Positions 2,662-59,878 of a DNA stretch of 59,878 bases are shown here, in pieces. Under the pieces are notes generated by a model. It searched no databases. It saw only the letters and a program-made list of their open reading frames with translations, and was not told the origin of the DNA. Made by a program: the position numbers and the translations under genes. This DNA comes from a virus, in IMG/VR virus record IMGVR_UViG_3300010938_000042, positions 1 through 59,878 of that record; one strand, given 5' to 3'. Position 1 is the first letter of the stretch, and each line of letters opens with the position of its first letter.

Positions 2662-2697
2662 CTTCGTATCAAATTTTGTTTTTAATTAACCGAGCCA

Positions 2698-6554: not shown

Positions 6555-6882
6555 CGAATAATGTTATAGTATTAGGGTGTTTTTGATTCCAATTTCTTAT
6601 TAAAGAATTCTTTCTTATTGCGATTGCTTCGGCTTTCGCATCAAGATATGCTACTGCTTTATCCAGTTTGGCTTTATTATCTATCAATGAATATCCAGAT
6701 TCAGAGGATGATATTAAATACCCCTTATGAATCATTTCTTCTATCTCTTTTCTCATAGCCCGATCTGACAACTCAGGAAAATATAATCTCAAATAAGATA
6801 AAAGGATGCTTCTTTTAACAGAACCTTTTAAACGGCTTTGATTTGAGATAAAATAATTTATGTGTTCATGCAATAAGTTCAT
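6541..6882 (-). CDS. Winged-helix-like phage protein
   Basis: A 113-residue protein when started at MNLLHEHINYF (6882). A longer frame reaches 6912. The central part (RSILLSYLRLYFPELSDRAMRKEIEEMIHKGYLISSSESGYSLI) reads like a winged helix-turn-helix with a beta wing, as found in phage regulatory or replication-accessory proteins. It overlaps the zinc-finger gene downstream, consistent with an operon. Function inferred only from fold-like pattern. Confidence 0.6.
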   Translation of the reverse strand: MNLLHEHINYFISNQSRLKGSVKRSILLSYLRLYFPELSDRAMRKEIEEMIHKGYLISSSESGYSLIDNKAKLDKAVAYLDAKAEAIAIRKNSLIRNWNQKHPNTITLFDEIM

Positions 6883-6964
6883 TATTATTAAAAAAAGCCG
6901 CCCCGGTTCCATACGTTCCCCGGCTGTTTCAGTGCGGACTACGAGGATAGCAAGCGGCCATTTG

Positions 6965-7183
6965 TTAATTCAATCGTGTTAATTGGTATATGGTTTTAAA
7001 TATTAGGTTAAAATCCTTTGGAAGAAACAAGCCAAGATTCTTTTCTACAATTACCATCATTTGAAGGTGCGCTCTGGCTTGGTTTAAAGTTAATTTCTTT
7101 TCGTTCATGAGGCGTTCTAAATACCTCACTTGCGCCCCCGGTGTTAGTCCGGTCTTGATTACTAATTGATCTGTTATGGTCAT
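6965..7183 (-). CDS. Hypothetical small protein
   Basis: A 72-residue protein (MTITDQLVIKTGLTPGAQVRYLERLMNEKKLT...), predominantly helical and weakly basic, unrecognised. An overlapping frame starts upstream at 7247 (MNISHTITTERPPFNEWIK) and reads into a different phase. The first 40 residues of that frame may be a separate short gene, but its C-terminal half is low-complexity and unconvincing. Confidence 0.45.
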   Translation of the reverse strand: MTITDQLVIKTGLTPGAQVRYLERLMNEKKLTLNQARAHLQMMVIVEKNLGLFLPKDFNLIFKTIYQLTRLN

Positions 7184-7255
7184 AGATTTGTTTTATCCAC
7201 TCATTAAATGGTGGTCGTTCTGTGGTTATTGTGTGGCTGATATTCATTATATTTT

Positions 7256-7351
7256 TTAGTTAAAAATTGCTAATGCCATTGCAAAGATTATAGTCATTGC
7301 AGATAATGCAATGAAGAATAAAATGCCCTTAATTATCTTCTTCATTGTCAT
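7256..7351 (-). CDS. 31-aa single-span membrane peptide
   Basis: Start at 7351, stop TAA at 7256-7258. The product is MTMKKIIKG followed by about 20 hydrophobic residues (ILFFIALSAMTIIFAMALAI), so nearly the whole peptide is one membrane span with a basic N-terminus. Its ATG overlaps the TGA of the gene upstream (ATGA), which supports translation. Such peptides are common in phages; role unknown. Confidence 0.5.
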   Translation of the reverse strand: MTMKKIIKGILFFIALSAMTIIFAMALAIFN

Positions 7352-7560
7352 TTCGATTTATTGCTGTCCCATGAATCAATTACTGTCTTGCGTGGTTCTG
7401 TCGGATTTCCAGATTGTACGTGATCTAATATTTTATTGAATACTTTTATTGCATCCTCCTCGTTAAATTGTACTGATCCGCCAATGAACCTACCATCAAC
7501 TTTCGTATAGAAGTGTGTTGGTTTAGAGATGCTTTCTTCTTTAATTAATTCTACTTTCAT
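7348..7560 (-). CDS. Hypothetical protein
   Basis: A 70-residue protein (MKVELIKEESISKPTHFYTKVDGRFIGGSVQFNEEDAIKVFNKIL...). The strand-strand-helix pattern, with a charged Lys-rich end, is of a type often seen as small early phage genes in Bacteroidota. No domain assignment. It overlaps the downstream membrane peptide by 4 nt. Confidence 0.55.
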   Translation of the reverse strand: MKVELIKEESISKPTHFYTKVDGRFIGGSVQFNEEDAIKVFNKILDHVQSGNPTEPRKTVIDSWDSNKSK

Positions 7561-7629
7561 AGTTTTGGGTTGTTTTGTTTATGTTTATGAAGTGGATTTT
7601 CTAAACTCGCTCATATTGTTGTTTGGTTA

Positions 7630-7830
7630 TCAGAATGGACAATTATCGAGTGTCTTTTGCTTGCGTTTCGCTTCCGCTTCCAGAATCTTTGGCATATCCC
7701 GTTGTATCTTCTCCCTAAAGGCATCCCTAATAAACACCGTAACCTTCACCCGCTTCTTCCTTAAATCATCCATCAGTTTTGTATCATCTTTTGAGAACCT
7801 TATCCTTCTGGTTTCTGTCAAGAACTTCAT
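7630..7830 (-). CDS. Ribbon-helix-helix-like DNA-binding protein
   Basis: A 66-residue basic protein. The N-terminus RRIRFSKDDTKLMDDLRKKRVKVTVFIRDAFREKI follows the beta-helix-helix pattern of ribbon-helix-helix regulators (R-x-R-F strand, then an amphipathic helix and an IRDAFREKI helix). It probably binds DNA as a dimer and regulates small neighbouring genes. No toxin-like partner is evident. Confidence 0.6.
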   Translation of the reverse strand: MKFLTETRRIRFSKDDTKLMDDLRKKRVKVTVFIRDAFREKIQRDMPKILEAEAKRKQKTLDNCPF

Positions 7831-7881
7831 AGTGCGGGTGCGTACATTTATTACGGCAATCCAGATTTATAAGCAATAAGC

Positions 7882-8097
7882 CTATATACGTTTTATCACA
7901 TCACACCATTTACTGAAACATTCAGGGTCAACTACTTTCTTTGAACCTTTAGGCTTACTGCTTATAACAGCAGGTTGGCGTAATGCTTTGTTCAGTTTTT
8001 CATGGATAGGTGAGTTAGGGTGTATCTCTATTCCATCAGTCAGCAGTCTATCAATCTCTACTGTTATTTCCATTATTTTCTTTTCTCGTTTTGTCAT
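7882..8097 (-). CDS. Small protein whose coding region spans half of attC-like site G
   Basis: A 71-residue basic protein (MTKREKKIMEITVEIDRLLTDGIEIHPNSPIHEKLNKALRQPAVISSKPKGSKK...). The codons for KALRQPAVIS are the left arm of attC-like site G. The coding region therefore begins in the loop of the palindrome and leaves through one arm. No family recognised. It could be a genuine phage gene into which a cassette was recombined, the attC arm having been pre-existing. Confidence 0.45.
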   Translation of the reverse strand: MTKREKKIMEITVEIDRLLTDGIEIHPNSPIHEKLNKALRQPAVISSKPKGSKKVVDPECFSKWCDVIKRI

Positions 8098-8153
8098 TCT
8101 AATCAATTTTTGTTGTTAATAAATCGCACTACGCCAACCTGCGAACCGTTATC
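7963..8153. other. attC-like site G
   Basis: The longest palindrome (about 190 bp). Plus-strand boxes are TTATAAC (7962-7968) and GTTATC (8148-8153). Inner arms GCAGGTTGGCGTAATGC and GCACTACGCCAACCTGC pair at 16 of 17 positions. It marks the boundary between the array proper and the block of small phage-type genes. The left arm lies within a coding sequence. Confidence 0.65.
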
Positions 8154-8406
8154 TTCCATTCTTTTTGGCGGACAAATCCACTTGTTGCCAATAATATCGT
8201 GAGTTCTCGGTTTCAAAAATTGAATCATTAATTATCTTTGTTACCCTACTTGTGCGATAATTGTCTATTACGAATGGTTTTCCTACTGTTGGTTTGTCTG
8301 GGAATACCCATCCATCTTCTATTATTCCTACTTTACATTCTCCTGCTTTCATTGAACTCGGACTGCTTTCAGTCCCTTCAATTTTTGTTAGTTTAATCTG
8401 TTTCAT
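8149..8406 (-). CDS. Hypothetical cassette protein
   Basis: An 85-residue protein with a beta-rich look (VGIIEDGWVFPDKPTVGKPFVIDNYRTSRVTKIINDSIFETENSRYYWQQ), reminiscent of a small barrel, but unassigned. The TAA stop lies in the GATAAC box of site G. The cassette ends are strongly matched: the stretch at 8149-8172 and that at 8423-8446 share TTATCTTC and TTCTTTTTGGCGGA in inverted orientation. Confidence 0.65.
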   Translation of the reverse strand: MKQIKLTKIEGTESSPSSMKAGECKVGIIEDGWVFPDKPTVGKPFVIDNYRTSRVTKIINDSIFETENSRYYWQQVDLSAKKNGR

Positions 8407-8440
8407 TTTGTTTTGTTTAAATCCGCCAAAAAGAACGAGA

Positions 8441-8572
8441 AGATAACAAGCAATTTGCGTTATTGCCTCTTTTTGCTTCGGGCTTCGGTTTATATTTATT
8501 TATTTTTCTCATTCGGTTTTCCTAATTGTGTTTTCTGCATAGGCAACAAACGCAAATCGCCAATCCGTTAAA
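8441..8572. other. attC-like site H
   Basis: Plus-strand boxes AGATAAC (8441-8447) and GTTAAA (8567-8572). The arms AATTTGCGTTATTGCC and GGCAACAAACGCAAAT pair with one bulged base. Right spacer AATCC. Loop about 75 bp and AT-rich. Separates the cassettes encoding 8149-8406 and 8584-8838. Confidence 0.65.
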
Positions 8573-8583
8573 TGAAATAAAAT

Positions 8584-8838
8584 TTACTTGCATTCTCGTT
8601 CCAAATAATCACGCAATTTTTTTTCGTCCTCTGGCTTAAACAGAAACTCGTCCCAATCTCCAAAGTTGCTTGTATATCCAAATGCGTATTTCAATCCCTT
8701 CCATAGTCGCTTAAAAAAGTTTCTGTGAGTTATTAGGTGCATTGTTACATACAAACTTTTTTCTTCTTCATCCCACCAAAAAATTGCTTGATGGCAGTAT
8801 GAATGGCACTCGCATATAAATATCTTTTGTTCTATCAT
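8584..8838 (-). CDS. Conserved phage-type hypothetical protein in a cassette
   Basis: An 84-residue protein. The pattern ECHSYCHQAIFWWDEEEKSLYVTMHLI...FFKRLWKGLKYAFGYTSNFGDWDEFLFKPEDEKKL matches a small family common in phages of many hosts (Cys/His pair at the N-terminus, then FGY and a D-x-F-x-F-x-P-E-D end). Function unknown. The start at 8838 is preferred. An upstream ATG (8865) straddles the crossover position of site I (ATG followed by TTAAATG). Cassette ends match over about 20 bp (TTAAATGAAATAAAATTTAC at 8568-8587, its near complement at 8843-8862). Confidence 0.7.
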   Translation of the reverse strand: MIEQKIFICECHSYCHQAIFWWDEEEKSLYVTMHLITHRNFFKRLWKGLKYAFGYTSNFGDWDEFLFKPEDEKKLRDYLERECK

Positions 8839-8856
8839 AGTCGTAAATTTTACTTC

Positions 8857-8962
8857 ATTTAACATATTGTTTAACGCAAATTTTACAGGCAATTAAGTTT
8901 ATCGGTAATCGGAAAGTTCGTGCTGATGCCTGTAAAATCAGCGTAAACAATCCACCGTTAGC
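8857..8962. other. attC-like site I
   Basis: Plus-strand boxes CATTTAAC (8856-8863) and GTTAGC (8957-8962). Inner arms TTGTTTAACGC...TTTTACAGGCA and TGCCTGTAAAA...GCGTAAACAA pair over about 24 positions with one extra base on the left arm. The left spacer is ATA and the right spacer is TCCACC. An extrahelical base on one arm is also a feature of integron attC sites. Confidence 0.7.
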
Positions 8963-8968
8963 ACCAAT

Positions 8969-9115
8969 TCAAATTTGCTTCTTTTGGCGAACAGCCGTGC
9001 GCTCCAATATTCCCTCTACATAATTTTTAAAGTTCGTTCCTTTCTTTATCGCTTGGATTGAAAGTAATTCAATCGCTTTTACTGTAAGGTGTATGTTCTT
9101 TATTTTCTTTTTCAT
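8969..9115 (-). CDS. Small ribbon-helix-helix-like protein (48 aa)
   Basis: The sequence begins MKKKIKNIHLTVKAIELL and ends AVRQKKQI. A short strand (IHLTV) is followed by two helices (AIELLSIQAIKKG and NFKNYVEGILE), the ribbon-helix-helix layout. It begins one base after the stop of the 9117-9323 gene, so they form a two-gene unit. Its stop codon lies in the terminal inverted repeat of the cassette. A dyad overlaps the promoter upstream (9356-9380), so autoregulation by this protein is plausible. It might be the antitoxin of a toxin-antitoxin pair, but the partner is not a recognisable toxin. Confidence 0.6.
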   Translation of the reverse strand: MKKKIKNIHLTVKAIELLSIQAIKKGTNFKNYVEGILERTAVRQKKQI

Positions 9116-9116
9116 T

Positions 9117-9323
9117 TTAATCTTGTAATTGTGTTACTGATGTAAATTCTTTTTTCAAAATATTGATTGCCTTTTTTACAGATGTAATATTTGCACACGC
9201 CCATTGTCCATTGTGCCAGATGGAAAATTTTCTTTGATTAGCATTTTCAAAATCAATCTGATAATAACCATCCTTCCAATCTTTCTTTGCGCCCTCGCAA
9301 TTATATGTTCCTAATTTTTTCAT
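9117..9323 (-). CDS. Hypothetical protein, first gene of a two-gene cassette
   Basis: A 68-residue protein (MKKLGTYNCEGAKKDWKDGYYQIDFENANQRKFSIWHNGQWACANITSVKKAINILKKEF). Three or four beta strands, then a helix. Unassigned. It is transcribed with the ribbon-helix-helix-like gene immediately downstream, from a promoter carrying a dyad. The cassette (8958-9518) has the longest matched ends of the array: AATTCAAATTTGC and TTTTGGCG occur on both sides in inverted orientation. Confidence 0.6.
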   Translation of the reverse strand: MKKLGTYNCEGAKKDWKDGYYQIDFENANQRKFSIWHNGQWACANITSVKKAINILKKEFTSVTQLQD

Positions 9324-9355
9324 GATTTGTTTTTTTAGCTTGTGTTGTTTTATAC

Positions 9356-9380
9356 ATCAAATATACTTATTATACTTGAT
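9356..9380 (-). promoter_or_regulatory. Promoter -7 box within a 25-bp dyad (operator)
   Basis: ATCAAATATA and TATACTTGAT form an inverted repeat with one mismatch around a 5-bp centre. The minus-strand -7 element TATATTTG (9358-9365) lies inside it. A repressor bound here would block transcription of the 9323-8969 gene pair. The small RHH-like protein of the pair is the obvious candidate. Confidence 0.55.
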
Positions 9381-9383
9381 ATA

Positions 9384-9624
9384 CACGCAATATGTTTCAA
9401 CTATTTTTCAGTATTTTTGCTTAATCTATGCAACTGCTTGATAATCAAAGCAATAAATTTATGCAAACAGCCCGCCAAAAAAAGCAAATTTGAATTCAAG
9501 CCCTAAAGGGGGTGCTAACATTTGCGCTATGCTCTACAAACTCATAGAGCGCATCATCTACCCATTTTAAAACTTCTATAGTGCGCTCATCTGACTTCTC
9601 CAACGGCTAAAGCACGTTGGTAGT
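9384..9624. other. Array edge: interrupted cassette end and degenerate attC-like site J
   Basis: No gene seen. The right terminal repeat of the last cassette (9472-9518) is broken by about 14 bp containing CCCTAAAGGG, a hairpin of the TnpB-element type (9497-9510). From GCTAAC (9514-9519) onward there are short inverted repeats (GCGCTATG and CATAGAGCGC, later TAGTGCGC). A hairpin CCAACG/CGTTGG follows at about 9600-9620. This may be a decayed attC-like site; beyond it the conserved lysis genes begin. Confidence 0.45.
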
Positions 9625-9876
9625 TCACGGAACAATAGACGAAATGAAATCGAGTAAATCTTTAACCGGCAATATGCCTTTGGCCGCTAAATAGACAAGC
9701 CCACCAACGCAGATAACCTCAACGGCTATAACATTCCAATTAATTTTCTTTGGTTCTCCAGTAGCTACGTCCTTACCGGTAGCTGATTCTACCCCCGAAA
9801 TAACCGCGTTACCCAAAGGGAAGGACTTAGCCACGCCCTTCAAAAATGTTCCTGCGAATTTTAATACTTTCTTCAT
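9625..9876 (-). CDS. Small membrane protein, holin-like
   Basis: An 83-residue protein. The first half is amphipathic with basic residues (MKKVLKFAGTFLKGVAKSFPLGNAVISG). A clear membrane span follows (VIAVEVICVGGLVYLAAKGIL, about 50-70). Located directly after the M15 peptidase gene in the lysis cluster, so it may be a holin or an accessory membrane lysis protein. Two holin-like candidates flank the endolysin; which one sets lysis timing cannot be told from sequence. Confidence 0.6.
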   Translation of the reverse strand: MKKVLKFAGTFLKGVAKSFPLGNAVISGVESATGKDVATGEPKKINWNVIAVEVICVGGLVYLAAKGILPVKDLLDFISSIVP

Positions 9877-9929
9877 GTTATTTTTTTTAATGTTAATAAA
9901 TAGTTGCTCTCTTTTATCTATTGCTATCT

Positions 9930-10418
9930 TTATGTGAAGGGGATATATTTGGTTTTGCCGTTTTCTTTAATTGCTCGAAGCACCTGTTTGCGGTTGCCAT
10001 ATTTATTGTAACTGACATGAACCCAAGCCGGTTGTGATGAATCGTTTGGTTCGGTAAATTCAAATATCAATTGGTCAAAAGCCGCTTTCTCTTTAATAGC
10101 CATAAACAAATCCTTGTTGTTAAAATCTGAATAGTGACATTCAATGTCCATAGCTTGGCCTAAACAATGCTGGCTCGTAGGGCTTCCATTGATTCTCTTA
10201 TTTAACTCCGGAGACCTATAAAATGAATTGATGTGTATTGGGCTGTCCTTTCCGCGCTTCATGCTGACGTATTTCCGTAAAGGTTCAAATACCTTCTCGG
10301 CTATCAGTTTCATGTTTTCAAGATGTTCTTCCGTTGGAACATTGTCTATACAAAGTCGGATGGCTTCGGATGACCTCGTTGCCTCTGCGTAGCTTATATG
10401 CTCACTTATTCGATTCAT
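9930..10418 (-). CDS. Peptidase M15 family endolysin (D-Ala-D-Ala carboxypeptidase-like)
   Basis: A 162-residue protein with the M15A zinc-peptidase signature: SQHCLGQAMDIE (about residues 80-91, the H and D zinc ligands of the SxHxxGxAxD motif) and AWVHVSY near 131, providing the third ligand His. It is preceded by the typical INSFYRSPELN segment. It should cleave peptidoglycan peptide cross-links. No signal peptide, so export would depend on the adjacent holins. The start overlaps the upstream holin-like gene by 17 nt. Confidence 0.88.
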   Translation of the reverse strand: MNRISEHISYAEATRSSEAIRLCIDNVPTEEHLENMKLIAEKVFEPLRKYVSMKRGKDSPIHINSFYRSPELNKRINGSPTSQHCLGQAMDIECHYSDFNNKDLFMAIKEKAAFDQLIFEFTEPNDSSQPAWVHVSYNKYGNRKQVLRAIKENGKTKYIPFT

Positions 10419-25300: not shown

Positions 25301-27807
25301 GAAAGAATCCTGCCAGATTCCTTTAGCCGTTCTTGGGCAAGTTCTCTTGCGCTTTTTGCGCCTTCAATTCCTTTAACTTCTTCCAATTTTTCGCCCTCAC
25401 CAAGAGGTTTTTCGCCTGTAAGTAATGGGTCTCTTTCTTGTTCTGCTCTTTCATAAATATATTCTTTTATGGTTTGTAATTCGTCTGGATTAAATATCAA
25501 ATCATTCTGTTCTTTCCATGCTTCAAAAGTTTCCGGGGTGACTTTATCCGCCTCTATAATATTAGATATATCTGGAACTTTTTTCGCCTCTATTTTTTCC
25601 TCTGGAGTGAGTTCTGATACATCAGACCTCTCTTTCTCCAACATTTTGCGCGCCTCATTTAAATTTATCCCGAATCTTTCGGTCATTCCTTCCGTTTCTC
25701 TTAACATCGGAATAAATCCTTTTTCTATTATCGGCTTTATCTTCTCAATCAATTTCCTTGCAGGGACAGAATTTTTACCGGCTTTTATATCCTTTATGGC
25801 TTTTGTTATTTCATATGTACTAAGTTCAAAATCCGGACGTGCTTCATATACCCTTCCCGCTAAATTAAACCATCCTTCTTCAATGATTTGCTTTGCATTG
25901 TCTATATCCTCTTTTTCATAAACTTCATCCAATGTCTTTCTTTTTTCAACTGGAATCTCTCCCTCCTTATATTTAAATTCTTCAAGTACGAATGGAACTG
26001 TTTCAGATGTCTTTTGCGGTTCATCTGCCATTTTTGATACATCTTCCGTTTTTTCTTCAATCACTTTTGCCGGCTTCTCTATTACCTCTATTGGCTTTTT
26101 CTTTAGTCCTGCATCATTCACAACTTCCTTTAATCCCTGAACATCCATATTGTTAACTGCATCTTGAACAACCTTCATTTCGTCTGCAACTAATGGCTTT
26201 TTATTTTTAATCTTTTCTGCCACATCCATTACCTTTGTTGAACCTTGATTTATTTTGTGCATCAAAATACCTTGTATAACTATATCAGCAATACCTGATA
26301 CGTCACCTGGTTCGTATCCCATCGCTTCAACGGCAGAAGATACCGGGGCCATAAACCATTTATTAATATATTCTCCGTATGGCAACGCATCTACGCCAGA
26401 CATAGATCCGGTAAAAACCCAACCTACTGGCGTAGCCGTCATGGCGGTTGCAAAAGCAGCATCTAATCCTCCTTTCAAAACCTTTATAGGGTCTCCTGAC
26501 TTAAAACCTTTAGCCATTTCCTCACCTCCATGCTTTACTCCTTCAACACCAGTACCTACAATATACCCAATCGGATTCATAACTAATCCGGCCAATCCCT
26601 GATTATTTGGATTTATAAAGGCATCCATTGCCTCGGACATACCTTTTGACCCTACCCATCCTTTCATTCTTTCCTCTATTGTAAGCGGTTCCGCACCTAT
26701 CTCACCTTTTTTTGCCGATTCTATTGCGGCTTCTTTATGCAACCTTACAGCCTCCGTATAGTCCTTTCGGTACATTTCATCAAATAATTCACGTTCTGCT
26801 ATCTCAGCAACCGTATCGACTCCTGCAAGAGCTTTTATATACTTTTTTGCCAAACTATCATCCCCCGCCTGCCTTCCGTATATTTTAGCCCTTTGCATTA
26901 TTAGTTCTGCCATCATAGCCTTATCTTCTGTCTTTGTAAGGCCCATGTTAATATCCTCGATGGCCCCTTTAATATCCCCTACTCTTTGTTTGTAAATTGC
27001 CCTGTTGTTCCATAAAGAAGCATCATCTGGGGCTTGTTCAATAGCCCTATCCATATAATCAATAGCCATCATATTATTGCCGCGATTCCCATATATGTAC
27101 GCCAGTCCATTATATGCAGGAAGATATGATGGATGTTCGGCAATAAGAGTTTCATACATTTTTGTCGCATCCTCATTCTTCCCCGTATTCATAAGATAAG
27201 TAGCAACCCCGTATTGAGCGTTGGGATTGTTCGGTTGTTCTTTAAGTAATTTCTGATATTGCTGAAGGCCGTAAGCGTCCTGCCACATCTTTTCGGCTTC
27301 ATCCCGTATCGCCTGATACTGCTGACTGGCTACATCAAAACCCGCATCCTTCAATTTAGGATACATGGCTTTATATAATTCCTCCCTCGTATCTGCGCTA
27401 TAATATAGGTCAGGATCTGAATTGAATTCAATATTGAAATATTCAAGAACCTTGTCTTTCTCTGTTTTTTCAGGCGCTTTCTTCTCTGCTGGCGTAGGGG
27501 TTGCTCCACCCGAAAAAGTAGATACGGGCTTTATATTTGGTTTTTGTTGAACTACACCTTTCTTTTCAAGATAGAAAGGATCCCATTTATAAGGTTCTGC
27601 GGATGTAGATGGGACTACGGAACCGGATGGCGGCAATGTAGTCGATGGCTTTATGGGCGTAATAGGGCCAACCTTTTCTTTTTTTTTTTCTACCTGAACA
27701 GATGATTTTCCCGAATCTACCAACGTATATCCTTCGGGAATAGGAGGTGCCTCTTCCTTAACTAATGTATATCCTTTGGGGATAGGGGGTAATTTATCTT
27801 GCGACAT
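22309..27807 (-). CDS. Giant internal virion / DNA ejection protein (1832 aa)
   Basis: The largest gene. The N-terminus has two copies of a PPIPxGYTLV motif. Then a low-complexity Lys/Pro/Thr region, TPR-like repeats (about residues 190-330: NPNAQYGVATYLMNTGKNEDATKMYETLIAEHPSYLPAYNGLAYIYGNRG...) and hydrophobic Gly/Ala segments (about 400-500). A long charged helical region follows. The C-terminal half has the pattern of a large polyvalent-protein-associated (LPD38-like) domain (FLRNVNTVLNPEFVLSNFIRDIQTALGNL, NAGIQGNARMFLALGKS). Such proteins are packaged in podovirus heads and ejected with the DNA. A 10-G run codes for Gly-Gly-Gly in the C-terminal part (22660-22669). Confidence 0.75.
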   Translation of the reverse strand: MSQDKLPPIPKGYTLVKEEAPPIPEGYTLVDSGKSSVQVEKKKEKVGPITPIKPSTTLPPSGSVVPSTSAEPYKWDPFYLEKKGVVQQKPNIKPVSTFSGGATPTPAEKKAPEKTEKDKVLEYFNIEFNSDPDLYYSADTREELYKAMYPKLKDAGFDVASQQYQAIRDEAEKMWQDAYGLQQYQKLLKEQPNNPNAQYGVATYLMNTGKNEDATKMYETLIAEHPSYLPAYNGLAYIYGNRGNNMMAIDYMDRAIEQAPDDASLWNNRAIYKQRVGDIKGAIEDINMGLTKTEDKAMMAELIMQRAKIYGRQAGDDSLAKKYIKALAGVDTVAEIAERELFDEMYRKDYTEAVRLHKEAAIESAKKGEIGAEPLTIEERMKGWVGSKGMSEAMDAFINPNNQGLAGLVMNPIGYIVGTGVEGVKHGGEEMAKGFKSGDPIKVLKGGLDAAFATAMTATPVGWVFTGSMSGVDALPYGEYINKWFMAPVSSAVEAMGYEPGDVSGIADIVIQGILMHKINQGSTKVMDVAEKIKNKKPLVADEMKVVQDAVNNMDVQGLKEVVNDAGLKKKPIEVIEKPAKVIEEKTEDVSKMADEPQKTSETVPFVLEEFKYKEGEIPVEKRKTLDEVYEKEDIDNAKQIIEEGWFNLAGRVYEARPDFELSTYEITKAIKDIKAGKNSVPARKLIEKIKPIIEKGFIPMLRETEGMTERFGINLNEARKMLEKERSDVSELTPEEKIEAKKVPDISNIIEADKVTPETFEAWKEQNDLIFNPDELQTIKEYIYERAEQERDPLLTGEKPLGEGEKLEEVKGIEGAKSARELAQERLKESGRILSEKFKDIFNEELGIIHDPKREAQKLYDFHVALVEAAKDAIKLGVVSAKEFADHIGRRVDDFLERAWDDAYNQTKGYDPFVVSAEFFEKMSVKRKFYSKEDAKAAEIKRANEKIKYDNENPSIQLKEETWVDKLATAFQNRFHRLGQTQKALEKTGVEIYDEINAEVANELTVGRIKAKLDRLENEIVKSKAKGEKALFERAKEEGVDAEDIGLYMYAKHAPERNAKVAADRREEYNAEKGKIEEKRKEIDEIKDPEEKARQEARLNAKEKELEKMLMDDGGSGMTNQQAKEILQEYELTGKTAYLEKYANEFREKVIDKNLEELKDSGLITEEAYNEIKDGYKHYVPLLVGEKMEGKILGKGKSIDLKGKDIYRAKGSNLYSSDQRINPVFAALFNYQKSIIRSEQNRTNRTFLRFAEKVGEPIFKIRKPEYNVKVNQNGEVEYVYRNYDPKLSENSIELKIDGKPVLIEISDPALLKAMKGIGVVKGVPILQSVNSFLRNVNTVLNPEFVLSNFIRDIQTALGNLSAEDIDKIKRNTVKNIPNAAKGIWQNERGKKSEWSDIVQELKDEGGDISWLQIGDINEYASKIEKKINRYNSNKTADNAANMFNSIVDYYISASKVAEMSVRVSAYKAARDAGVSPMKAAYLAKNLTVNFEKKGNLGAAMDSLYLFANAGIQGNARMFLALGKSKKTRALVASGVAGSMMMNYMNSLINEEEYDKIDDVIKERNIIIMKTDGDYIKIPLPYGYNIFKVMGDSIYEMISGKKDVSEGIKKIFLSISNAFNPLSSPTLSQMISPTITDPLVQLSENKNWRGAPIIPETKGFQPGTKESSKYFSSVRPLSKEVTDWLNDVTGGTKTEAGYIDISPEILDHFIDFMGGGLSRFVMNVLNGTYEFAKGDIPKMSNIPFARTFYGKPSEYRDTKIVYEMLDNSYKKIYDEDEILKFKKSIQKAVDEKQIEHERAKDMTSTFIKGQKMLKFSRENPELTLDEIKKRYK

Positions 27808-27808
27808 T

Positions 27809-29248
27809 TTACAATTCTTTTCCTGTTTTTATATTATACCATTTCCCGTTCTTAACCCCAATCTTTATCTCGTTACCTTTTGCATCTATTACCAACTTTA
27901 CATTGGTATATCCGCCATTGCTGTCTGTTTTTTCGTCTATTTTATCCTGTGCGCCTACTTGCGCCCCCCCCCCTATTTGTTTATGAAGTTCATCAATATC
28001 GACACCTCCATATTCTCCCATGAATTTCTTCTTATTAATATCTGATTTGGTAATAGGTACATATTCTTTCTTGTATTTGTCAGGCATAGATTCGGGGGAT
28101 GTTTCTGAGAATAGTGCCCACACATCTTGCTCTTTATTTTTAGGCACCAACACTTCCATCATGTAGTTTGTCTCATTTTCTCCACCCATATCATATATCT
28201 TCCCAGTGGGACGACCTGTAATCTCATAACCAGATTCAGATTCAAAACTATTTATGGGCAATGGTGTTCCGCCTTCTTGTCCAAATATAATAAGTCTCTT
28301 TCCCCTTTGCGTTTCAAACCCCTCTTTAGGATTGGCAAAATTATAATAGTATTTTCCTGACTTAATGCCGCCAATGCCTATCTGAATACCTGCTCCTTCC
28401 TCTCTTTCTGGTGCTGCCTTAGAACTAAAGAGTGAATTCCAAAATCTTTCAATACTTTCTGGAGCATCTTCCAATTTATTCCCTGCGGCTATATATTCAG
28501 CAATAGCGGCATTATATGCCGGAGTTTTCATAAAATCAAGAAATTGGGTATTCTTATATTGAGATACAGGCCCTTTTTCGCCCTCCTTTGTTGTATAGGT
28601 CCCTACCATCTTCGCCCTCGTTCTTAAATCCTTTCTCCAATCAATAATATCTGGCTTCGTATCAAACAAACCAAACGTGTAATATTCCCCACCATAAGCA
28701 TCACCATGTATGGCTTGAAGTACCTGATTCCATTCCTCTGGTTCTCCCTTTTGCCACGCATCGAGCAGGGTTGTCTTTCTCCCATCTGGAAGTTGAATTT
28801 CTTTAGTTGATAAATTATTACCTTTGTCCTGATTTAAAATGCTCAAATCTTTTGCAAACTGCGCCGTACTCTGTTGTGCGCGATCGTATTCCTGTTGAAG
28901 TTCAAATAGGGCATTTTTAAATTCACGGTTATTTCGGTAATTGTAACTTGTAGGATTTTCTGACCGGATGCGCTGCATTATATCAAATAATTTTGCCGCT
29001 TTCGTCTGAATAGTGGGCTGATGGACGCGGCCAATCCCGCTTTCATTTTTTAATACCCACTTATCAATTTGATCCCTATACTCGTCCTGTTCCTCAAGAG
29101 CTTTCATCCGTAAAGCATACGATCTTGCCCTTGCCGCTTCTTCCTCATCTCTTTGCTGTTGCATGGATCTAAGAACATACGGAGTGTATGTTTCAGGAGT
29201 TCCCTGAAGCGCAATTCCATATCCTATATTTGTAGTCCCCTTTGCCAT
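27809..29248 (-). CDS. Internal virion protein, helical
   Basis: A 479-residue protein. The N-terminal 150 residues are charged and coiled-coil-like (LRSMQQQRDEEEAARARSYALRMKALEEQDEYRDQ). The rest is mixed. Lies between the giant ejection protein and the Gln-rich protein, all with one- to two-base spacing or overlap, so a single translational unit of presumed internal-virion proteins. A 10-C run (27964-27973) codes for Gly-Gly-Gly. No enzymatic motif seen. Confidence 0.58.
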   Translation of the reverse strand: MAKGTTNIGYGIALQGTPETYTPYVLRSMQQQRDEEEAARARSYALRMKALEEQDEYRDQIDKWVLKNESGIGRVHQPTIQTKAAKLFDIMQRIRSENPTSYNYRNNREFKNALFELQQEYDRAQQSTAQFAKDLSILNQDKGNNLSTKEIQLPDGRKTTLLDAWQKGEPEEWNQVLQAIHGDAYGGEYYTFGLFDTKPDIIDWRKDLRTRAKMVGTYTTKEGEKGPVSQYKNTQFLDFMKTPAYNAAIAEYIAAGNKLEDAPESIERFWNSLFSSKAAPEREEGAGIQIGIGGIKSGKYYYNFANPKEGFETQRGKRLIIFGQEGGTPLPINSFESESGYEITGRPTGKIYDMGGENETNYMMEVLVPKNKEQDVWALFSETSPESMPDKYKKEYVPITKSDINKKKFMGEYGGVDIDELHKQIGGGAQVGAQDKIDEKTDSNGGYTNVKLVIDAKGNEIKIGVKNGKWYNIKTGKEL

Positions 29249-45211: not shown

Positions 45212-46408
45212 TTAAGTATGCGTAGCACACAAAACATTGTCGGAAGATTGACACTTCACAGACCTGACTTTTGCCAGCGTCTCAGCGTCCTCACCCCGCA
45301 TTCCTGCGGTGAATATTTTATTCAAACCAAAATTTTTTTTGTTTATGGCTGAATTGACATCTCTGTCATGTAAAGTATTGCAGTTGGCACAAACCCATTC
45401 TCTGTAGGCTAATGTGAGAGTATGGTTAAGTGTCCCGCAGCAATTACAAAGTTTTGTAGATGGTTCAAATGTTCCTATCTGTAACACATTTTTGCCTTTC
45501 CACTCTGCTTTGTATTTGCAAAACCCGATGAGCATACTCCATCCTGCATCGCCAATGGCTTGGGCAAGTTTGTGGTTTGCCATCATGTTTTGCACTTTAA
45601 GGGTTTCAAATACCAATGTGTCGTGGTTATTGACTAACTGGCTTGAAACTTTATGTAAAAAATCTTTTCTTTGGTTTGATATTTTTTCGTGTCGTAAGGC
45701 AATAGTTCGCTGGTATCGTTTATGTCTATTACTACCCTTTGTTTTTTTGCTTAATCTTTTTTGTAAAATCTTCAATCTGGCAATGGATTGTTTAAGGTAT
45801 TTCGGATTTTCAAAACGAACACCATCAGAACATACGGCAGTTTCTTTTAAGTTCAAATCTATTCCTATTGCAGTGTTCTCTCTGATAGGTTTTTTCTTTG
45901 GTAATTCTTTTTCATTTTCAACTAAAATGCTTGCAAAATATTTATCGGTTGGGGTTCGTGTTATGGTTACTGTTTTTATTTTACCTTTGAATTTCCTGTG
46001 CAGAATGATTTTTATTGCCCCATTGAATTTTGGCAAATGAAGTAATTCTGTTTCAAAATCTATTTCAACGGATTGCGGACATTGGAAACTTTGTGTTCCT
46101 GTTCGTTTTCTGAACTTAGGAAATCCTGCTCCCTGTTTGAAAAATTTATTCCATGCAATTTCTTGGTTTCGTAATGCCATCTGTAAACTTTGGGAATTGA
46201 CTTTTTTCAGCCACTTACATTCCTCTTTTAAATCAGGAAGTTGTTTTGTTATTTCGTGGAGCGAAAGAAATTTTTTGCTTCCGCTATATGCGGTAAGTCG
46301 TGTTTCAAGTGCAAGATTATACACAAAACGAACAGAGCCGAAAACTTTTGCAAGTTCTTTTTTCTGCGGTTCAGTAGGGTATATCCGAAAACGAAACGCC
46401 TTTAACAT
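45212..46408 (-). CDS. tnpB: TnpB, RNA-guided nuclease of an IS605-like element
   Basis: A 398-residue OrfB/TnpB protein. The N-terminus AFRFRIYPTEPQKKELAKVFGSVRFVYNLA is the family signature. The RuvC residues are present: AIGIDLNLKETAV (Asp), TLVFETLKVQNM (Glu) and HDRDVNSAIN (Asp). The zinc finger has CNCC...CANC. Length is normal. It should be an active, guide-RNA-directed nuclease. The guide (reRNA/omega RNA) is expected to lie at its 3' end, towards the hairpin at 45176-45198. The start is at 46408, just after TATCTTTG (46413-46420), so the message may be leaderless. Confidence 0.9.
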   Translation of the reverse strand: MLKAFRFRIYPTEPQKKELAKVFGSVRFVYNLALETRLTAYSGSKKFLSLHEITKQLPDLKEECKWLKKVNSQSLQMALRNQEIAWNKFFKQGAGFPKFRKRTGTQSFQCPQSVEIDFETELLHLPKFNGAIKIILHRKFKGKIKTVTITRTPTDKYFASILVENEKELPKKKPIRENTAIGIDLNLKETAVCSDGVRFENPKYLKQSIARLKILQKRLSKKTKGSNRHKRYQRTIALRHEKISNQRKDFLHKVSSQLVNNHDTLVFETLKVQNMMANHKLAQAIGDAGWSMLIGFCKYKAEWKGKNVLQIGTFEPSTKLCNCCGTLNHTLTLAYREWVCANCNTLHDRDVNSAINKKNFGLNKIFTAGMRGEDAETLAKVRSVKCQSSDNVLCATHT

Positions 46409-46412
46409 AGTG

Positions 46413-46420
46413 CAAAGATA
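46413..46420 (-). promoter_or_regulatory. Promoter -7 box of tnpB
   Basis: Minus-strand TATCTTTG, with TTTG 18 bases upstream as a -33-like box. The ATG of tnpB is 4 bases downstream, giving a leaderless or near-leaderless message. Confidence 0.6.
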
Positions 46421-46469
46421 CAAAAATATTATTACTTACAAATTATTTATTACTTTTGTAAAACAACGG

Positions 46470-46544: not shown

Positions 46545-46886
46545 ATGATAAGCCAGCAATCAGAAAAAGAACTTCAAGAACTATCTCTAAAAAATCCAGC
46601 AGTAAAAGAACTCTTTGACTTCTACTGCGGAATAAAAAAAAACGGGCTTAAACTCTTGTTCATAAAAATGAACGAGAAATATTCTGAACTCGCATCGGAC
46701 ATTGAACGATCTTCCATATCTTTATCCGCCGAAGACAAAACCTTTGAAAGATTTATGAAAATTGCCATCGAAGCCGGCACTATGCAGGAAAACTACTCCA
46801 AACTTGAATCTTATATGTTCGGAGAAAAATCAGAAGAAAAAGAAGGATCATTCCTCGACAAACGCGCTAACCGAAAACGCTCTTGA
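46545..46886 (+). CDS. Possible small terminase subunit
   Basis: A 113-residue, helical, charged protein (MISQQSEKELQELSLKNPAVKELFDFYCGIKKNGLKLLFIKMNEKYSELASDIERSSISLSAEDKTFERFMKIAIEAGTMQEN). Directly upstream of TerL, with the stop TGA overlapping the TTG start of TerL (TTGA). Position is that of TerS, but the protein is small and no HTH is obvious. Confidence 0.5.
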   Translation: MISQQSEKELQELSLKNPAVKELFDFYCGIKKNGLKLLFIKMNEKYSELASDIERSSISLSAEDKTFERFMKIAIEAGTMQENYSKLESYMFGEKSEEKEGSFLDKRANRKRS

Positions 46887-48676
46887 AACCACGATACGAA
46901 ATATCCGAATATCTATCCCGCGTACCATCCGAATTTGACTCCCCAAAAGAAAAAGAACTCTTCTGGGAAGGAGAATACGAAAAATGGCATAACGGCTACA
47001 AAGGACTTACAGGATACCACTATTTTTTCCTCACCCAATGCAAAATCAAATCCGCCGACGGAACCGAAATTACCCCCTTTTGGCGCGATGTGGATGAATT
47101 CATCTTTGAACGCTATGAAGAAGCCCGAAAAACACAGGCAGACATTATATACGTCAAACGCCGCGAAATAGGGCTTACCACCATCTTCGGCGGAGTATTA
47201 CCAATATGCAATTCCCTTATCTACGCCGGAAGCAATAACCTTATTACCTCCGCCGACAAAGACCGCATTAAAAACCTCTTTATAGAAAAAACATCAACCA
47301 TATACGATAACCTCCATAAATACATCAAGCCAAAACGCGCCAATATGCGCCAAGACGGATTCATGTTCTTTGCCGAACGCAACACAAAAACAGGTGAATA
47401 CTCCGGCCTCAAATCTTCCATCATCTGCAAAGAAACCGTCGATAAACCAAATGCCTTTGAAACCTACCGCGCCAAATCCGTCTTCATCGACGAATTCTTC
47501 CTGCACCCAAAAGCACCAGAAGTCAGAATCTCCGCCCAAGCCTGCGTCAAGGCCGGACACGTCAAAATAGCTCCCATCGTCATGGGAGGATCCTGCGGCG
47601 TTACCTCCGCCGAAGGAATGAAAGAAGGAATCAAAATATGGAAAGATGCCCCAGCCCTTAACATCGTCACCGTATTCATACCTGGATGGATGGGCATCTC
47701 ACAAGCCCCAGAACTCGACCAAGAAGGAAAACCAACCGGCAAAATCCTTAACTTCTGCAAAAACGGCTACTCCAACCAACAACTCGCCTCCCAATGGATC
47801 CAACAAACACGAGACCGCCTCGCAAAAGCCTCCGATAAACGCGCATACCTTACCTTCATAAAAGAATACCCACTATCCATCGACGAAGTATTTACCTCAT
47901 CGAACGAAGGTATCCTGCCCCCAGAAGTTATGCAAAATGTCCAACACCAAAAAATCCATATCCTAAATAATAAACCCCCAATCTCATCCTACATCCTCTA
48001 CCGCCAAAATAACCGCGTCATCGCTGAACCCTCCCCTAACGGAAAATTCTTTATCCTCGAAAAACCAATCCCAAACGAACCCTACATCGCAGGATCAGAC
48101 TGCCTCCCCTTCAATACCGAAAATATTAAAGAAGGATCTAAATACGCTATCGTTATCAAAAAACCACTCGCCAATACCTACGTCGCCTTCTACGCAGAAC
48201 GATCACTTAACTCCGACCTCGTTATCCAAAACTGCATCCTCCTCCAAGACTACTTCAACCACGCTAAAACTATGGTCGAAACTAACTCCGCAGGCATTAC
48301 CCTCAAAACATACAAAGACCTCAATAGACTTGACCTCCTCGCTAAACGCCCATCCGCCCTCGGAATTAATTTCGTCGATAAAAAAGAATCCTACGGATAT
48401 TATAAAAACATACATACCACACAACGCGGAATAGACCTACTCATCAAACTACTTATTAACCACTACGATAAAATATTCTTCGACGAAATACTCTCCGAAA
48501 TCCCTAAATTCCCACACGAAAATACAGACCTCCTCGACGCCATCATCGCCTGCGAATTCCATGACGCCAATATCATCGAATCCTTTAAATCAAAAAAAAT
48601 ATCCAAACCACGCCAAATCCCTATCTTCGAACGAGACCCATCAGGAAAAACTATTATCTCATGGAAAACTTTATAA
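46883..48676 (+). CDS. terL: Terminase large subunit
   Basis: A 597-residue DNA-packaging motor. Walker-A-like IYVKRREIGLTT (about residues 90-101), Walker B KSVFIDEFF (about 198-206), and a C-terminal nuclease region (PYIAGSDCLPF... with Asp, LLDAIIACEFHDANII). It starts at a TTG coupled to the gene upstream. Its third codon positions are strikingly C-rich although the genome is AT-rich, unlike the neighbouring genes. This may mark a strand-composition domain near a replication origin or terminus. Confidence 0.85.
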   Translation: MKPRYEISEYLSRVPSEFDSPKEKELFWEGEYEKWHNGYKGLTGYHYFFLTQCKIKSADGTEITPFWRDVDEFIFERYEEARKTQADIIYVKRREIGLTTIFGGVLPICNSLIYAGSNNLITSADKDRIKNLFIEKTSTIYDNLHKYIKPKRANMRQDGFMFFAERNTKTGEYSGLKSSIICKETVDKPNAFETYRAKSVFIDEFFLHPKAPEVRISAQACVKAGHVKIAPIVMGGSCGVTSAEGMKEGIKIWKDAPALNIVTVFIPGWMGISQAPELDQEGKPTGKILNFCKNGYSNQQLASQWIQQTRDRLAKASDKRAYLTFIKEYPLSIDEVFTSSNEGILPPEVMQNVQHQKIHILNNKPPISSYILYRQNNRVIAEPSPNGKFFILEKPIPNEPYIAGSDCLPFNTENIKEGSKYAIVIKKPLANTYVAFYAERSLNSDLVIQNCILLQDYFNHAKTMVETNSAGITLKTYKDLNRLDLLAKRPSALGINFVDKKESYGYYKNIHTTQRGIDLLIKLLINHYDKIFFDEILSEIPKFPHENTDLLDAIIACEFHDANIIESFKSKKISKPRQIPIFERDPSGKTIISWKTL

Positions 48677-57636: not shown

Positions 57637-57849
57637 TCATTGCCGTTTCCAATCAATCTCCCGTACATCCTCCAAGTCCGACCTCAATTCAATGAGAGTG
57701 GATTGGAGTAATCCCTGTTCCGCCTTATTGAACTTGGCAGGATGGTCGGGATTGAGTTTGTTTTCAAATTCCGATAAAGATATACCGACCTTAGATGCCA
57801 GAAACTCCTTATTCAGATTCCATTTGTCAATCACATCTACTATATCCAT
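57637..57849 (-). CDS. HTH (Cro/XRE-like) small regulator, coupled to recombinase
   Basis: A 70-residue protein (MDIVDVIDKWNLNKEFLASKVGISLSEFENKLNPDHPAKFNKAEQGLLQSTLIELRSDLEDVREIDWKRQ). NKEFLASKVGISLSEFENKLNP is an HTH-like segment. The ATG overlaps the TAA of the recombinase gene (TAATG), so the two are made together. A directionality or control role for the recombinase is a reasonable inference. Confidence 0.6.
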   Translation of the reverse strand: MDIVDVIDKWNLNKEFLASKVGISLSEFENKLNPDHPAKFNKAEQGLLQSTLIELRSDLEDVREIDWKRQ

Positions 57850-58718
57850 TACGCTTGTTTTAAGAGTTTAGTTTTAGAATTAGTGTCAAGAATGAATTGT
57901 AAAGGTGTAGTGATTTTACTAATCATATTATGGCTTATATGACCATATATTTGAGTAGTCTTAATCGTTGAATGTCCGAGTAATCTTTGAAGTATGCTCA
58001 TATCCGTTCCCGCTTCAAGAAGATGAGTTGCATAACAATGACGGATTAGATGCGGGTGAACTCTCTTTTTTATTCCTGCAAGAGAAGCATACTTCTGTAA
58101 AAATTCCGAAATACTCCTTTCAGAATATCTTGGAGCATTATTCTGTCCATTGAATAAATACTCCTGAGGTCTATATTCTTTGTAATAGATTCGGAGCAAC
58201 TCAAGTAAGGTAGGGTCAAGAGTTACCTGTCTGTCTTTTCCACCTTTTGCATCACGGACATTAATAATCATTCGTGAATTATCAATATCGCATATCTTTA
58301 GATTGATTACTTCTCCAACTCTTACACCTGTACTATACATTAGGCAAAGAATAGTTTTGTGTTTGAGATTTGAACACGAAAAAATTATGCTCTGCATTTC
58401 TTCCACAGAAAGAACAATAGGCAATCTTCTGTTCCGTTTTGCATATTCAATATATTTGAATTTGTTTGGTTGGCGAAGAACATATTTATAGAAACATTTA
58501 ATTGCCGAGTGATGCGCCCTTTGAGTATTCTGTTCATCAAATTGCCATAGATAGTCCTTGATGTCAGATTCATTAATCTTTATGGGATGCGTTTTCTTCT
58601 CATTAAAATAATTCAAAAATACCCCAATACAAGACACATAATTATCAATACTCTTGGGACGAAAGAATTTTCGTTCTAATTCTTTTCTAAACTCGTTCAT
58701 ATACTTGGAAATTTCCAT
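57849..58718 (-). CDS. Tyrosine recombinase (XerC/IntI-like), candidate cassette integrase
   Basis: A 289-residue tyrosine recombinase. N-terminal SAM-like core-binding domain (residues 1-90: FRPKSIDNYVSCIGVFLNYFN). The catalytic set includes SVEEMQSII, STGVRVGEVINL (Arg, about 130), VHPHLIRHCYATHLLEAGTDM (His-x-x-Arg, about 220-240), QRLLGHSTIKTTQIYGHIS (second His, Tyr about 257). It resembles XerC and integron integrases. By eye the segment before HxxR is short, without the extra IntI-specific domain, so it may be a Xer- or phage-type enzyme. Its start lies 54 bp from the first cassette boundary, and it reads away from the array, the typical position of an integron integrase. Confidence 0.8.
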   Translation of the reverse strand: MEISKYMNEFRKELERKFFRPKSIDNYVSCIGVFLNYFNEKKTHPIKINESDIKDYLWQFDEQNTQRAHHSAIKCFYKYVLRQPNKFKYIEYAKRNRRLPIVLSVEEMQSIIFSCSNLKHKTILCLMYSTGVRVGEVINLKICDIDNSRMIINVRDAKGGKDRQVTLDPTLLELLRIYYKEYRPQEYLFNGQNNAPRYSERSISEFLQKYASLAGIKKRVHPHLIRHCYATHLLEAGTDMSILQRLLGHSTIKTTQIYGHISHNMISKITTPLQFILDTNSKTKLLKQA

Positions 58719-58772
58719 TACTCTTTATCTTAATTATCAATTAGTTACCTTATGTGTAATCTATATTCTATG
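58719..58772. other. attI-like junction between recombinase and first cassette
   Basis: AT-rich stretch with GTTACC (58744-58749) and TATG followed by the first cassette boundary (GTTAGCGG, 58772-58779). On the plus strand the order is recombinase start, this region, then TTAGC of the first cassette, as attI precedes cassettes in integrons. No matching arms; attI sites are not palindromic, so this is consistent. Confidence 0.5.
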
Positions 58773-58788
58773 TTAGCGGAAATAAAAT

Positions 58789-59022
58789 TTAACTGCCAAC
58801 GCTCTTGGTATTATTGTTTTCATCAAACACTTTATCAAATTGAATTTTCATAAACTTGATAGTTTCTACGATTTTAGTCCTTAATTCTTTTCCATCGCCT
58901 TTCCCAAATGAGTAATCGCCCATATCGTATCCTAAATCGTAATCAATTTCTTCCCAAGTTTTATTGAAATCTACTCTACGCATTAGAGCAAATACTACTT
59001 CTTTGTCGTTGTTGTATTCCAT
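58789..59022 (-). CDS. First-cassette protein, unknown function
   Basis: A 77-residue acidic protein (MEYNNDKEVVFALMRRVDFNKTWEEIDYDLGYDMGDYSFGKGDGKELRTKIVETIKFMKIQFDKVFDENNNTKSVGS). Helix-strand-helix look, no recognisable domain. Sole gene of the cassette next to the recombinase, framed by 22-bp inverted ends (58773-58794 and 59059-59081, core TAAAATTTAAC). Transcribed towards the recombinase, so not served by a promoter in the attI region. Confidence 0.6.
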   Translation of the reverse strand: MEYNNDKEVVFALMRRVDFNKTWEEIDYDLGYDMGDYSFGKGDGKELRTKIVETIKFMKIQFDKVFDENNNTKSVGS

Positions 59023-59076
59023 TTTATTTATTTTTAGTTAATAATTCCTTCGCTCAAAAAGTTAAATTTTACTTCT

Positions 59077-59206
59077 GCTAACAAGGGGTTGCTGCAATGG
59101 CTTGTTCTGTTCTTCGTTTGACATTTGTAGTTTATTTTAAGTTTATATTTTCAAATTAAGTTCATCGGTTAAGGTCGCCACTGACAGCAACCCCCGAACC
59201 GTTATA
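59077..59206. other. attC-like site K
   Basis: Plus-strand boxes TGCTAAC (59076-59082) and GTTATA (59201-59206). Arms GGGGTTGCTG (plus CAATGGC) and CAGCAACCCC pair over at least 10 bp. Left spacer AA, right spacer CGAACC, as in the other sites. It ends the first cassette and starts the one cut by the window ends. Confidence 0.7.
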
Positions 59207-59306
59207 GGAAAGCTGCTACATTCGTGTTCCATTTGACAGTTCCGTTTCAACTTTTAATCGAAAGAATTCCTCGCAGCTCTGCTGCGGGGTGGCTGTTGGT
59301 GTTTAG

Positions 59307-59314
59307 TATCTTTG
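59307..59314 (+). promoter_or_regulatory. Promoter -7 box of tnpA
   Basis: TATCTTTG, 4 bases before the GTG at 59319. Same leaderless arrangement as tnpB. Confidence 0.5.
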
Positions 59315-59318
59315 TGTT

Positions 59319-59768
59319 GTGAGTGAGCATATTTATAAGAGGCATAATAAAAGCCTATTGTTGTATCATTTGGTTTGTCCGATAAAATATCGGAGAAGTG
59401 TTTTGACCGAGGAAGTAGAAAAGAGTTTGGTTGAGGTGTGTACGGGAATAGAGAAAAGATTTGAGATACATTTTATTGAAATTGGTGCAGATGAAAACCA
59501 TGTTCATTTTTTGATGCAAAGTGTCCCAATGATGTCTCCCAAACAGATTACGCAAACGGTAAAAAGTATCACCGCGAAAGAACTGTTCAGGCTTCATCCA
59601 GAGGTAAAACAACAGCTTTGGGGCGGCCAATTTTGGAGTGATGGGTATTATATTAATACGGTTGGCCAGTATGCCAATGAAGAAGTGATTCAGCGATATA
59701 TCCATGAACAAGGAATCGATAAGAGTGCGTACAAAAAAATTCATAAGAATCAATTGCGCCTATTTTAG
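59319..59768 (+). CDS. tnpA: IS200/IS605-family transposase TnpA (Y1 HUH)
   Basis: A 149-residue Y1 transposase, the usual length. It has LLYHLVCPIKYRRSVL at the start and the HUH pair in ADENHVHFLMQ (His-Val-His, about 66-70). The catalytic Tyr is in NTVGQYANEEVIQRYI near the C-terminus. It cuts and joins single-stranded DNA at the hairpin ends. GTG start at 59319 (SEHIYKRHNK). Probably active, as all motifs are intact. It could also mobilise the solo copy at 12952 in trans. Confidence 0.9.
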   Translation: MSEHIYKRHNKSLLLYHLVCPIKYRRSVLTEEVEKSLVEVCTGIEKRFEIHFIEIGADENHVHFLMQSVPMMSPKQITQTVKSITAKELFRLHPEVKQQLWGGQFWSDGYYINTVGQYANEEVIQRYIHEQGIDKSAYKKIHKNQLRLF

Positions 59769-59878
59769 TATTGTGTATTTGTATTGATACCTCGCAGCTC
59801 TGCTGCGGGGTCATTCATTTTTCCCTCCCCTTTTAAGAAAGAGAAAATGTAAGCGATAACATCAACCGTCCAACCATC
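59765..59878 (-). CDS. C-terminal part of a second C5-cytosine methyltransferase (partial)
   Basis: Continues off the right end. The visible residues are DGWTVDVIAYIFSFLKGEGK, homologous to the C-terminus of the enzyme at 1435-2661 (NGWTVDVIAHFFVFLKGEEK). Then the frame enters the right end of the IS200-like element (MNDPAAELRGINTNTQY) and stops at 59765, so the original tail was replaced by the insertion. The N-terminus should lie beyond the left edge, if the genome is circular. Confidence 0.8.
   Translation of the reverse strand, partial: DGWTVDVIAYIFSFLKGEGKMNDPAAELRGINTNTQY

Follow-up and report, generated by a model that had tools for sequence, protein, structure and literature searches.

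An Array of attC-Like Sites and Gene Cassettes beside a XerA-Like Recombinase in a Bacteroidota Phage: A Candidate Integron-Like Platform

Organization of the Phage Genome and Its Cassette Array

The window analyzed here is the entire IMG/VR record IMGVR_UViG_3300010938_000042 (59,878 bases), which is a phage of Bacteroidota bacteria. Its phage genes, assigned with PHROGs, include a large terminase, a portal, an endolysin, and a primase-helicase. The large terminase (46883-48676) showed weak similarity, about 23%, to those of crAss-like phages, and a TnpB-like (IS605 OrfB) transposase (45212-46423; PHROG 506 "transposase", 396 bits) was found within the structural gene region. No close relatives were retrieved from the IMG/VR viral contigs with the primase-helicase as query, no close match to the window was found at the DNA level in the phage collection, and an Rfam scan of the window returned no match.

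A gene for a tyrosine recombinase of 289 amino acids lies on the minus strand at 57849-58718, with about 54 bp between its ATG and the R-box end (58772-58777) of a cassette, here called cassette K (58772-59207, minus strand). This cassette consists of an attC-like site, a 77-aa ORF (58789-59022), and an R box; its inverted ends (58771-58794 and 59060-59083) match over 24 nt at 92%, and its attC-like site, site K (59072-59211, minus strand), scored 103.4 bits with our covariance model R1. This confirmed the arrangement described in the first-pass annotation, namely a recombinase gene 54 bp from a cassette with matched ends and a palindrome. Between the last cassette and the recombinase start we observed a conserved, attI-like junction, CGCTAAC-ATAGAA-TATAGATTACACATAAGG (58748-58777, minus strand).

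From site K the array of 10-11 attC-like palindromes continues through 30-8967. The architecture was judged with R1 and an in-house structure scan requiring a TAAC, a stem, and a GTTA. All nine sites found by the structure scan fell within the 10.2 kb of the array, the remaining 49 kb had none, and shuffled sequence gave a mean of 0.3 sites and a maximum of 2. R1 found site K and nine sites in 30-8967, all on the minus strand, and nothing else in the window beyond an 18-bit partial match at 1402-1469. The annotation had reported nine further palindromes through the first 9 kb. R1 was trained on 28 sequences, and because site A (30-169, 116.7 bits), site B (822-960, 93.4 bits), and site K were among them, the scores of these three are partly by construction. 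The other seven window sites were outside the training set: C (1184-1284, 67.6 bits), E (2696-2786, 57.4 bits), F (5327-5460, 63.1 bits), Fb (5743-5880, 79.9 bits), G (7958-8158, 63.9 bits), H (8437-8577, 56.9 bits), and I (8853-8967, 33.2 bits). Site D (1279-1412, minus strand) was found by the structure scan only. Together, the two methods revealed the features of tandem attC sites in the window, that is, the R/L architecture, the TAAC/GTTA cores, and a folded stem. A plain TAAC..CGTTA pattern search gave counts no higher than chance. A first structure scan, in which R'' and R' of one site had to match, stayed at the shuffle level overall; at a junction, each of the two R boxes comes from a different cassette, and for this reason the scan was redone with the cores only.

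The cassette genes described here, all on the minus strand, include many methyltransferases. The cassette at 159-953 carries an N4/N6 DNA methyltransferase gene (187-900; Pfam N6_N4_Mtase) together with site B and recurs in two other phages (L174 and L015). A C5 cytosine methyltransferase gene follows at 1435-2661 (Pfam DNA_methylase, 2.9e-50), and one cassette (2878-5269; Pfam, PHROGs) holds an N4/N6 methyltransferase gene (2878-3861) and two helicase parts. The helicase comprises two adjoining ORFs, the C-terminal part at 3854-4549 and the N-terminal part at 4571-5269, and is possibly one broken or split gene. The ORF list also includes a 128-aa ORF (5424-5810) whose start codon lies within site Fb, and the loop of site G holds the start of ORF 7882-8106. 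The array terminates next to the lysis genes, on their downstream side, in a distal cassette (8960-9523, minus strand; ORF 9117-9323) that has no attC-like site upstream of it. The lysis genes, a holin-like ORF and an endolysin (9625-10418), lie upstream of the array on the same strand (endolysin, PHROG 894, 2e-25; the holin was called from sequence alone).

The annotation had joined this array to the recombinase on the condition that the genome is circular. Of 15 positions, 13 pair between the start of the left-end cassette (41 to 30) and the cassette end at 59204-59211, and no other end reaches more than 9/15; in five clear cassettes, the two ends of the same cassette match at 13-14 of 15 positions, each cassette bringing its own R-box pair. 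The segment at 59205-59878 (minus strand) thus forms the 3' portion of a cassette that begins, with its 5' portion, at 41 to 1 of the window. It encodes the C-terminus of a second C5 methyltransferase, a near-duplicate of the 1435-2661 gene, and the contig break falls inside this copy. With one cassette divided between the two contig ends, a circular or permuted genome is very probable. The contig-end cassette also carries an inserted IS200/IS605 TnpA transposase gene (59319-59768, plus strand; NF033573, 129.5 bits; Pfam Y1_Tnp), which is flanked by GCAGCTCTGCTGC hairpins, the whole element spanning 59265-59812.

A XerA-Like Recombinase without the IntI Insertion

The recombinase possesses all of the catalytic residues (R133, K158, H223, R226, H249, and Y258) and matches Pfam Phage_integrase at 1e-36. 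Its top-scoring NCBIfam family was XerA (NF040815; 212.6 bits over the full length, below the curated cut-off of 220), XerD was also among the best matches, and the score against IntI (TIGR02249) was 169 bits, which fails the cut-off of 265. The closest PDB sequences were the Pyrococcus XerC-like protein 4a8e and XerA 5hxy. In alignments A1 and A4, a gap was present in place of the IntI-specific insertion near patch III. Across 20 viral records, including that of the window, no protein scored above the IntI cut-off of 265; the window recombinase and most of the recombinases in these records skipped TIGR02249 positions of about 182-238, so that the match fell into two pieces, mostly 2-181 and 239-314, with a few extending to about 207. 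Judged from these comparisons, the window recombinase is XerA-like, not IntI.

As a lone query against viral contigs, the recombinase retrieved no relatives, because such a search reaches close relatives only; relatives were then found with alignment A2. The nearest were those of L014 (79%), L015 (65%), and L016 (63%), and arrays are present in all three. In the tree, the recombinases of array-bearing phages group together (8 changes vs. 36 when shuffled) and apart from an IntI clade. The earlier suggestion of a Xer-like enzyme is supported. On plasmids with related recombinases no arrays were seen, and in L012 and L013 related XerA-like recombinases adjoin IS91 transposases.

Architecture and Orientation of the attC-Like Sites

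In an alignment of 28 phage sites, a 19-bp stem was observed in which 90% of cells were paired, compared with 56% after shuffling. Covariation along this stem was 0.784, compared with 0.19 in shuffled and 0.12-0.17 in slid alignments, and 17 of the 19 stem pairs showed changes on both sides. A G.T pair, at columns 32 and 127 of alignment A3 and about 13 bp into the stem, was present in 27/28 sites; this pair may be a strand mark of the folded strand, like the extrahelical bases of canonical attC sites. The phage sites fell into length classes of about 49, 57, 87, 116, and 125 nt (L048/L049 and others).

Read along the recombinase strand, the sites have the form CTAACG...TGTTA, which resembles the bottom strand of canonical attC, both in a by-eye comparison with the sites of phages L002-L004 and against well-known attC sequences. 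Polarity relative to canonical attC was assigned from the core and spacer sequences together with the direction of the genes in bacterial arrays. Among the phages, 104/112 of the longest cassette ORFs lie on the folded strand of attC, which is the recombinase strand, whereas the bacterial cassettes scored, few in number, were all (16/16) in canonical orientation. Thus, the phage genes are inverted relative to canonical cassettes, and the attC-like site precedes its gene. This comparison of polarity with canonical attC also removed an initial impression that the recombinase stood at the wrong array end.

A start codon was located in the attC-like loop at 48/88 sites, compared with 42% at random places in these dense loci and 1/88 on the opposite strand, and we treat this feature as descriptive only. 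In many phage site loops, the start codon comes with N-terminal peptides that recur, QPSCLGAV and PQLNIGAV being examples. Among the larger cassette ORFs, 19/53 matched the N6/N4 methyltransferase family.

Linkage of Arrays to the Recombinase in Other Phages

We collected 80 viral loci by a profile search with recombinase alignment A2, so these loci are recombinase-selected. R1, itself trained on sites 5' of recombinases, gave 129 matches in them, 125 of which were on the recombinase strand and nearly all 5' of the recombinase, and the locus counts are affected by truncated contigs. The structure scan, which is blind to side, found 39 sites in the first kilobase 5' of the recombinase compared with 3 on the 3' side; the 5' sites decayed with distance to 2 in the tenth kilobase, and the 3' side was at background throughout.

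An attI-like junction beside the recombinase had also been proposed by the first-pass annotation, and a conserved motif was indeed found. YTAAC-N6-TATAT stands directly ahead of the recombinase start in many phage loci, and the motif TAAC-N3..7-[AG]TAT occurred in 26/41 array-bearing phage loci, compared with 4/31 other viral recombinase loci (Fisher 2.6e-5, an optimistic value because the motif was loosened after inspection of the loci). It is missing from 15/41 array-bearing phage loci, and the stricter first version was present in 10/41. In Leef_1, a cultured Polaribacter phage described as potentially temperate (L008/L215), a recombinase relative is accompanied by one cassette-like unit (27760-28136 of its record) ending at the attI-like CTAACGCCCCTATATA; Leef_1 would be a convenient laboratory model.

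Six array-bearing phage records were reached via the methyltransferase gene, and none of them (0/6) contained the recombinase. In four (L174, L175, L179, and L180) the sequence on the expected side is present and the recombinase is missing, which indicates that arrays can exist without it. The cassettes of such phages are presumably moved in trans, and the recombinase might work in trans as well.

Evidence of Cassette Exchange between Phages

Comparison of related loci provided evidence of cassette exchange between phages at TAAC boundaries. L020 and L021 are 92-96% identical; their cassettes differ between a TAACG and the junction TAAC, and the recombinase side is common to both from exactly CTAAC onward. 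The window cassette at 159-953 matches L174 at 90% over 796 bp in unrelated flanks, and the homology stops at TAAC on both sides, which delimits a mobile unit of palindrome and gene. With L015, the identity is 98.4% over 192 bp at the 3' end of this window cassette; the match stops at TAACG, and the next palindrome differs. These boundaries bear on whether the sites are ordinary palindromic repeats, such as terminators, REP, or MITE-like elements. Intergenic palindromes are common, but in the present case the sites lie on one strand and in one region, share a stem architecture with covariation, and delimit cassettes that match their own ends and whose homology stops at TAAC; in addition, 14 genomes outside Bacteroidota gave one marginal R1 match in total (E 0.006). 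We therefore consider ordinary repeats scarcely credible as an explanation.

Arrays and Related Recombinases in Bacteroidota Chromosomes

At the loci where Bacteroidota genomes carry related recombinases, 70/73 R1 matches were on the strand opposite to the recombinase and nearly all 3' of it. Among 148 sampled Bacteroidota genomes, R1 sites were found in 75 and true IntI above the cut-off in 46, the latter exceeding what published surveys of complete genomes suggest; in the IntegronFinder 2 survey, the sole complete integron in Bacteroidetes proper was that of Salinibacter (PMC9024848). IntI was present in 3/25 genomes with at least five R1 sites, compared with 29/73 genomes without R1 sites. 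Twelve genomes were picked solely for many R1 sites and no IntI, and eight of them held a strong recombinase relative; in all eight, an R1 site lay about 0.3-12 kb away on that contig. Two Flavobacterium genomes gave 89 and 77 R1 matches, and in six array-bearing genomes no IntI above the cut-off was found.

On these distributions, it is very improbable that the array is a cluster of ordinary integron cassettes lacking an integrase (CALIN), which a canonical IntI moves and which the recombinase adjoins by chance. CALINs are known in phages (PMC9892861), and 46 of the 148 sampled genomes do carry true IntI; however, the recombinase linkage recurs across viral loci, IntI is the rarer where R1 sites are many, and R1 had no match at E < 1 in the phages with canonical attC sites, L002-L004.

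Another explanation is that the recombinase is an ordinary phage integrase or dimer resolvase acting on the junction as attP or dif, and that a host enzyme, either IntI or a host XerA-like protein, inserts the cassettes in trans. An attP usually adjoins int, Leef_1 combines potential temperance with a recombinase relative and a single cassette-like unit, and the four records with recombinase-less arrays would also fit; moreover, IntI1 recombined attC sites from phages in vivo, including one site of Polaribacter phage P12002L (PMC9892861). On the other hand, the array-bearing recombinases cluster on the tree, the arrays stop at the junction in many phages, and in Bacteroidota chromosomes related recombinases also stand beside arrays in genomes from which IntI is mostly absent. 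In addition, no tRNA gene was found in the window, which leaves no tRNA-type att core to be seen there. Taken together, we regard this explanation as unlikely.

Proposed Mechanism and Its Implications

We thus proposed that the locus is an integron-like cassette-capture platform run by a XerA-like recombinase without the IntI insertion (I2), a reading to which we assign a probability of roughly three in four and in which the enzyme is the presumed catalyst. The recombinase would join folded, single-stranded attC-like sites to each other and to the attI-like site that immediately precedes the recombinase gene, and the mobile unit would consist of an attC-like palindrome, a gene, and an R box. 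Cleavage is predicted at TAA/C on the recombinase strand, which corresponds to the G/TT position on the other strand. The near-invariant G.T pair may mark the strand that would fold in vivo. The attC-like site ahead of a gene often appears to carry the start codon of that gene, and the cassettes might be expressed by read-through from the end of the lysis genes together with these built-in starts. Within this scheme, the structure of the sites with its covariation, their linkage to the recombinase, the junction motif, the exchange at boundaries, and the sharing of cassettes are observed, and catalysis by the enzyme, folding in vivo, the precise cut, the transfer direction, and expression are inferred.

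With somewhat less assurance, we favor the broader view that such systems form a separate integron branch, widespread in Bacteroidota chromosomes and phages, in which an insertion-less XerA-like recombinase captures and shuffles cassettes, the phage form being inverted, with the site upstream of the gene and often supplying its translation start.

The insertion of IntI is regarded as the defining feature of integron integrases and as a requirement for recognizing folded attC sites. With search tools that depend on IntI, these arrays would be filed under CALINs, that is, orphan arrays of unknown origin. Should a XerA-like enzyme be what runs them, many "orphan" arrays of Bacteroidota would have an owner, and integrons would have arisen or worked with a simpler recombinase; phages would then possess a cassette exchange of their own for anti-restriction methyltransferases. 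It also becomes testable whether the folded-site chemistry or the IntI insertion came first.

Comparison with Known Systems

The known XerA members resolve chromosome dimers at dif, and we know of no XerA member that works on cassette arrays. The window recombinase falls just under the cut-off of XerA NF040815, a family named "site-specific tyrosine recombinase/integron integrase". Integron recombination is reported to need the IntI insertion (PMC9668308 and PMC8138268, as cited there), which counts against the proposed platform. Smyshlyaev (2021) distinguished an "integron-like" subgroup of simple tyrosine recombinases and termed the insertion essential for integron function; in contrast to our loci, no arrays appear to be described there beside insertion-less members (PMC8138268).

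Qi et al. (2023) described CALINs in phages, including two methyltransferases in P12002L (PMC9892861). Their arrays and ours share attC-like sites and DNA methyltransferase cassettes in Bacteroidota phages, but for the CALINs of virulent phages no recombinase was described, and P12002L, whose sites are shorter, was not matched by R1 at E < 1. Thus, the first-pass claim that a recombinase-linked, phage-borne array of methyltransferase cassettes would be new was too strong as regards the array, whereas the recombinase does look new.

With integrons, the present system shares arrays of one-gene cassettes between folded palindromes with TAAC/GTTA cores, a recombinase at one end of the array reading away from it, a candidate attI-like junction adjoining it, and exchange that fits the G/TT position. 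It differs in that the recombinase is XerA-like and lacks the IntI insertion, the R boxes are extended (about 11-15 nt), and the phage genes are inverted relative to attC, which lies upstream of the gene. If integrons are defined strictly by IntI, the array counts as a CALIN, having two or more attC sites and no integron integrase. The integron-like capture system proposed in the annotation is partly supported, with respect to its attC-like cassettes, its linked Xer-like recombinase, the attI-like junction, the probable continuity across the contig ends, and signs of exchange between phages; it is not an integron sensu stricto, because its integrase is not IntI and the IntI-specific insertion is absent. 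We conclude that the platform appears to work like an integron while standing outside the strict class. Judged against the open-access literature, three features look new: the recombinase, the fact that it recurs in phages and in chromosomes of Bacteroidota, and the inversion of the cassettes.
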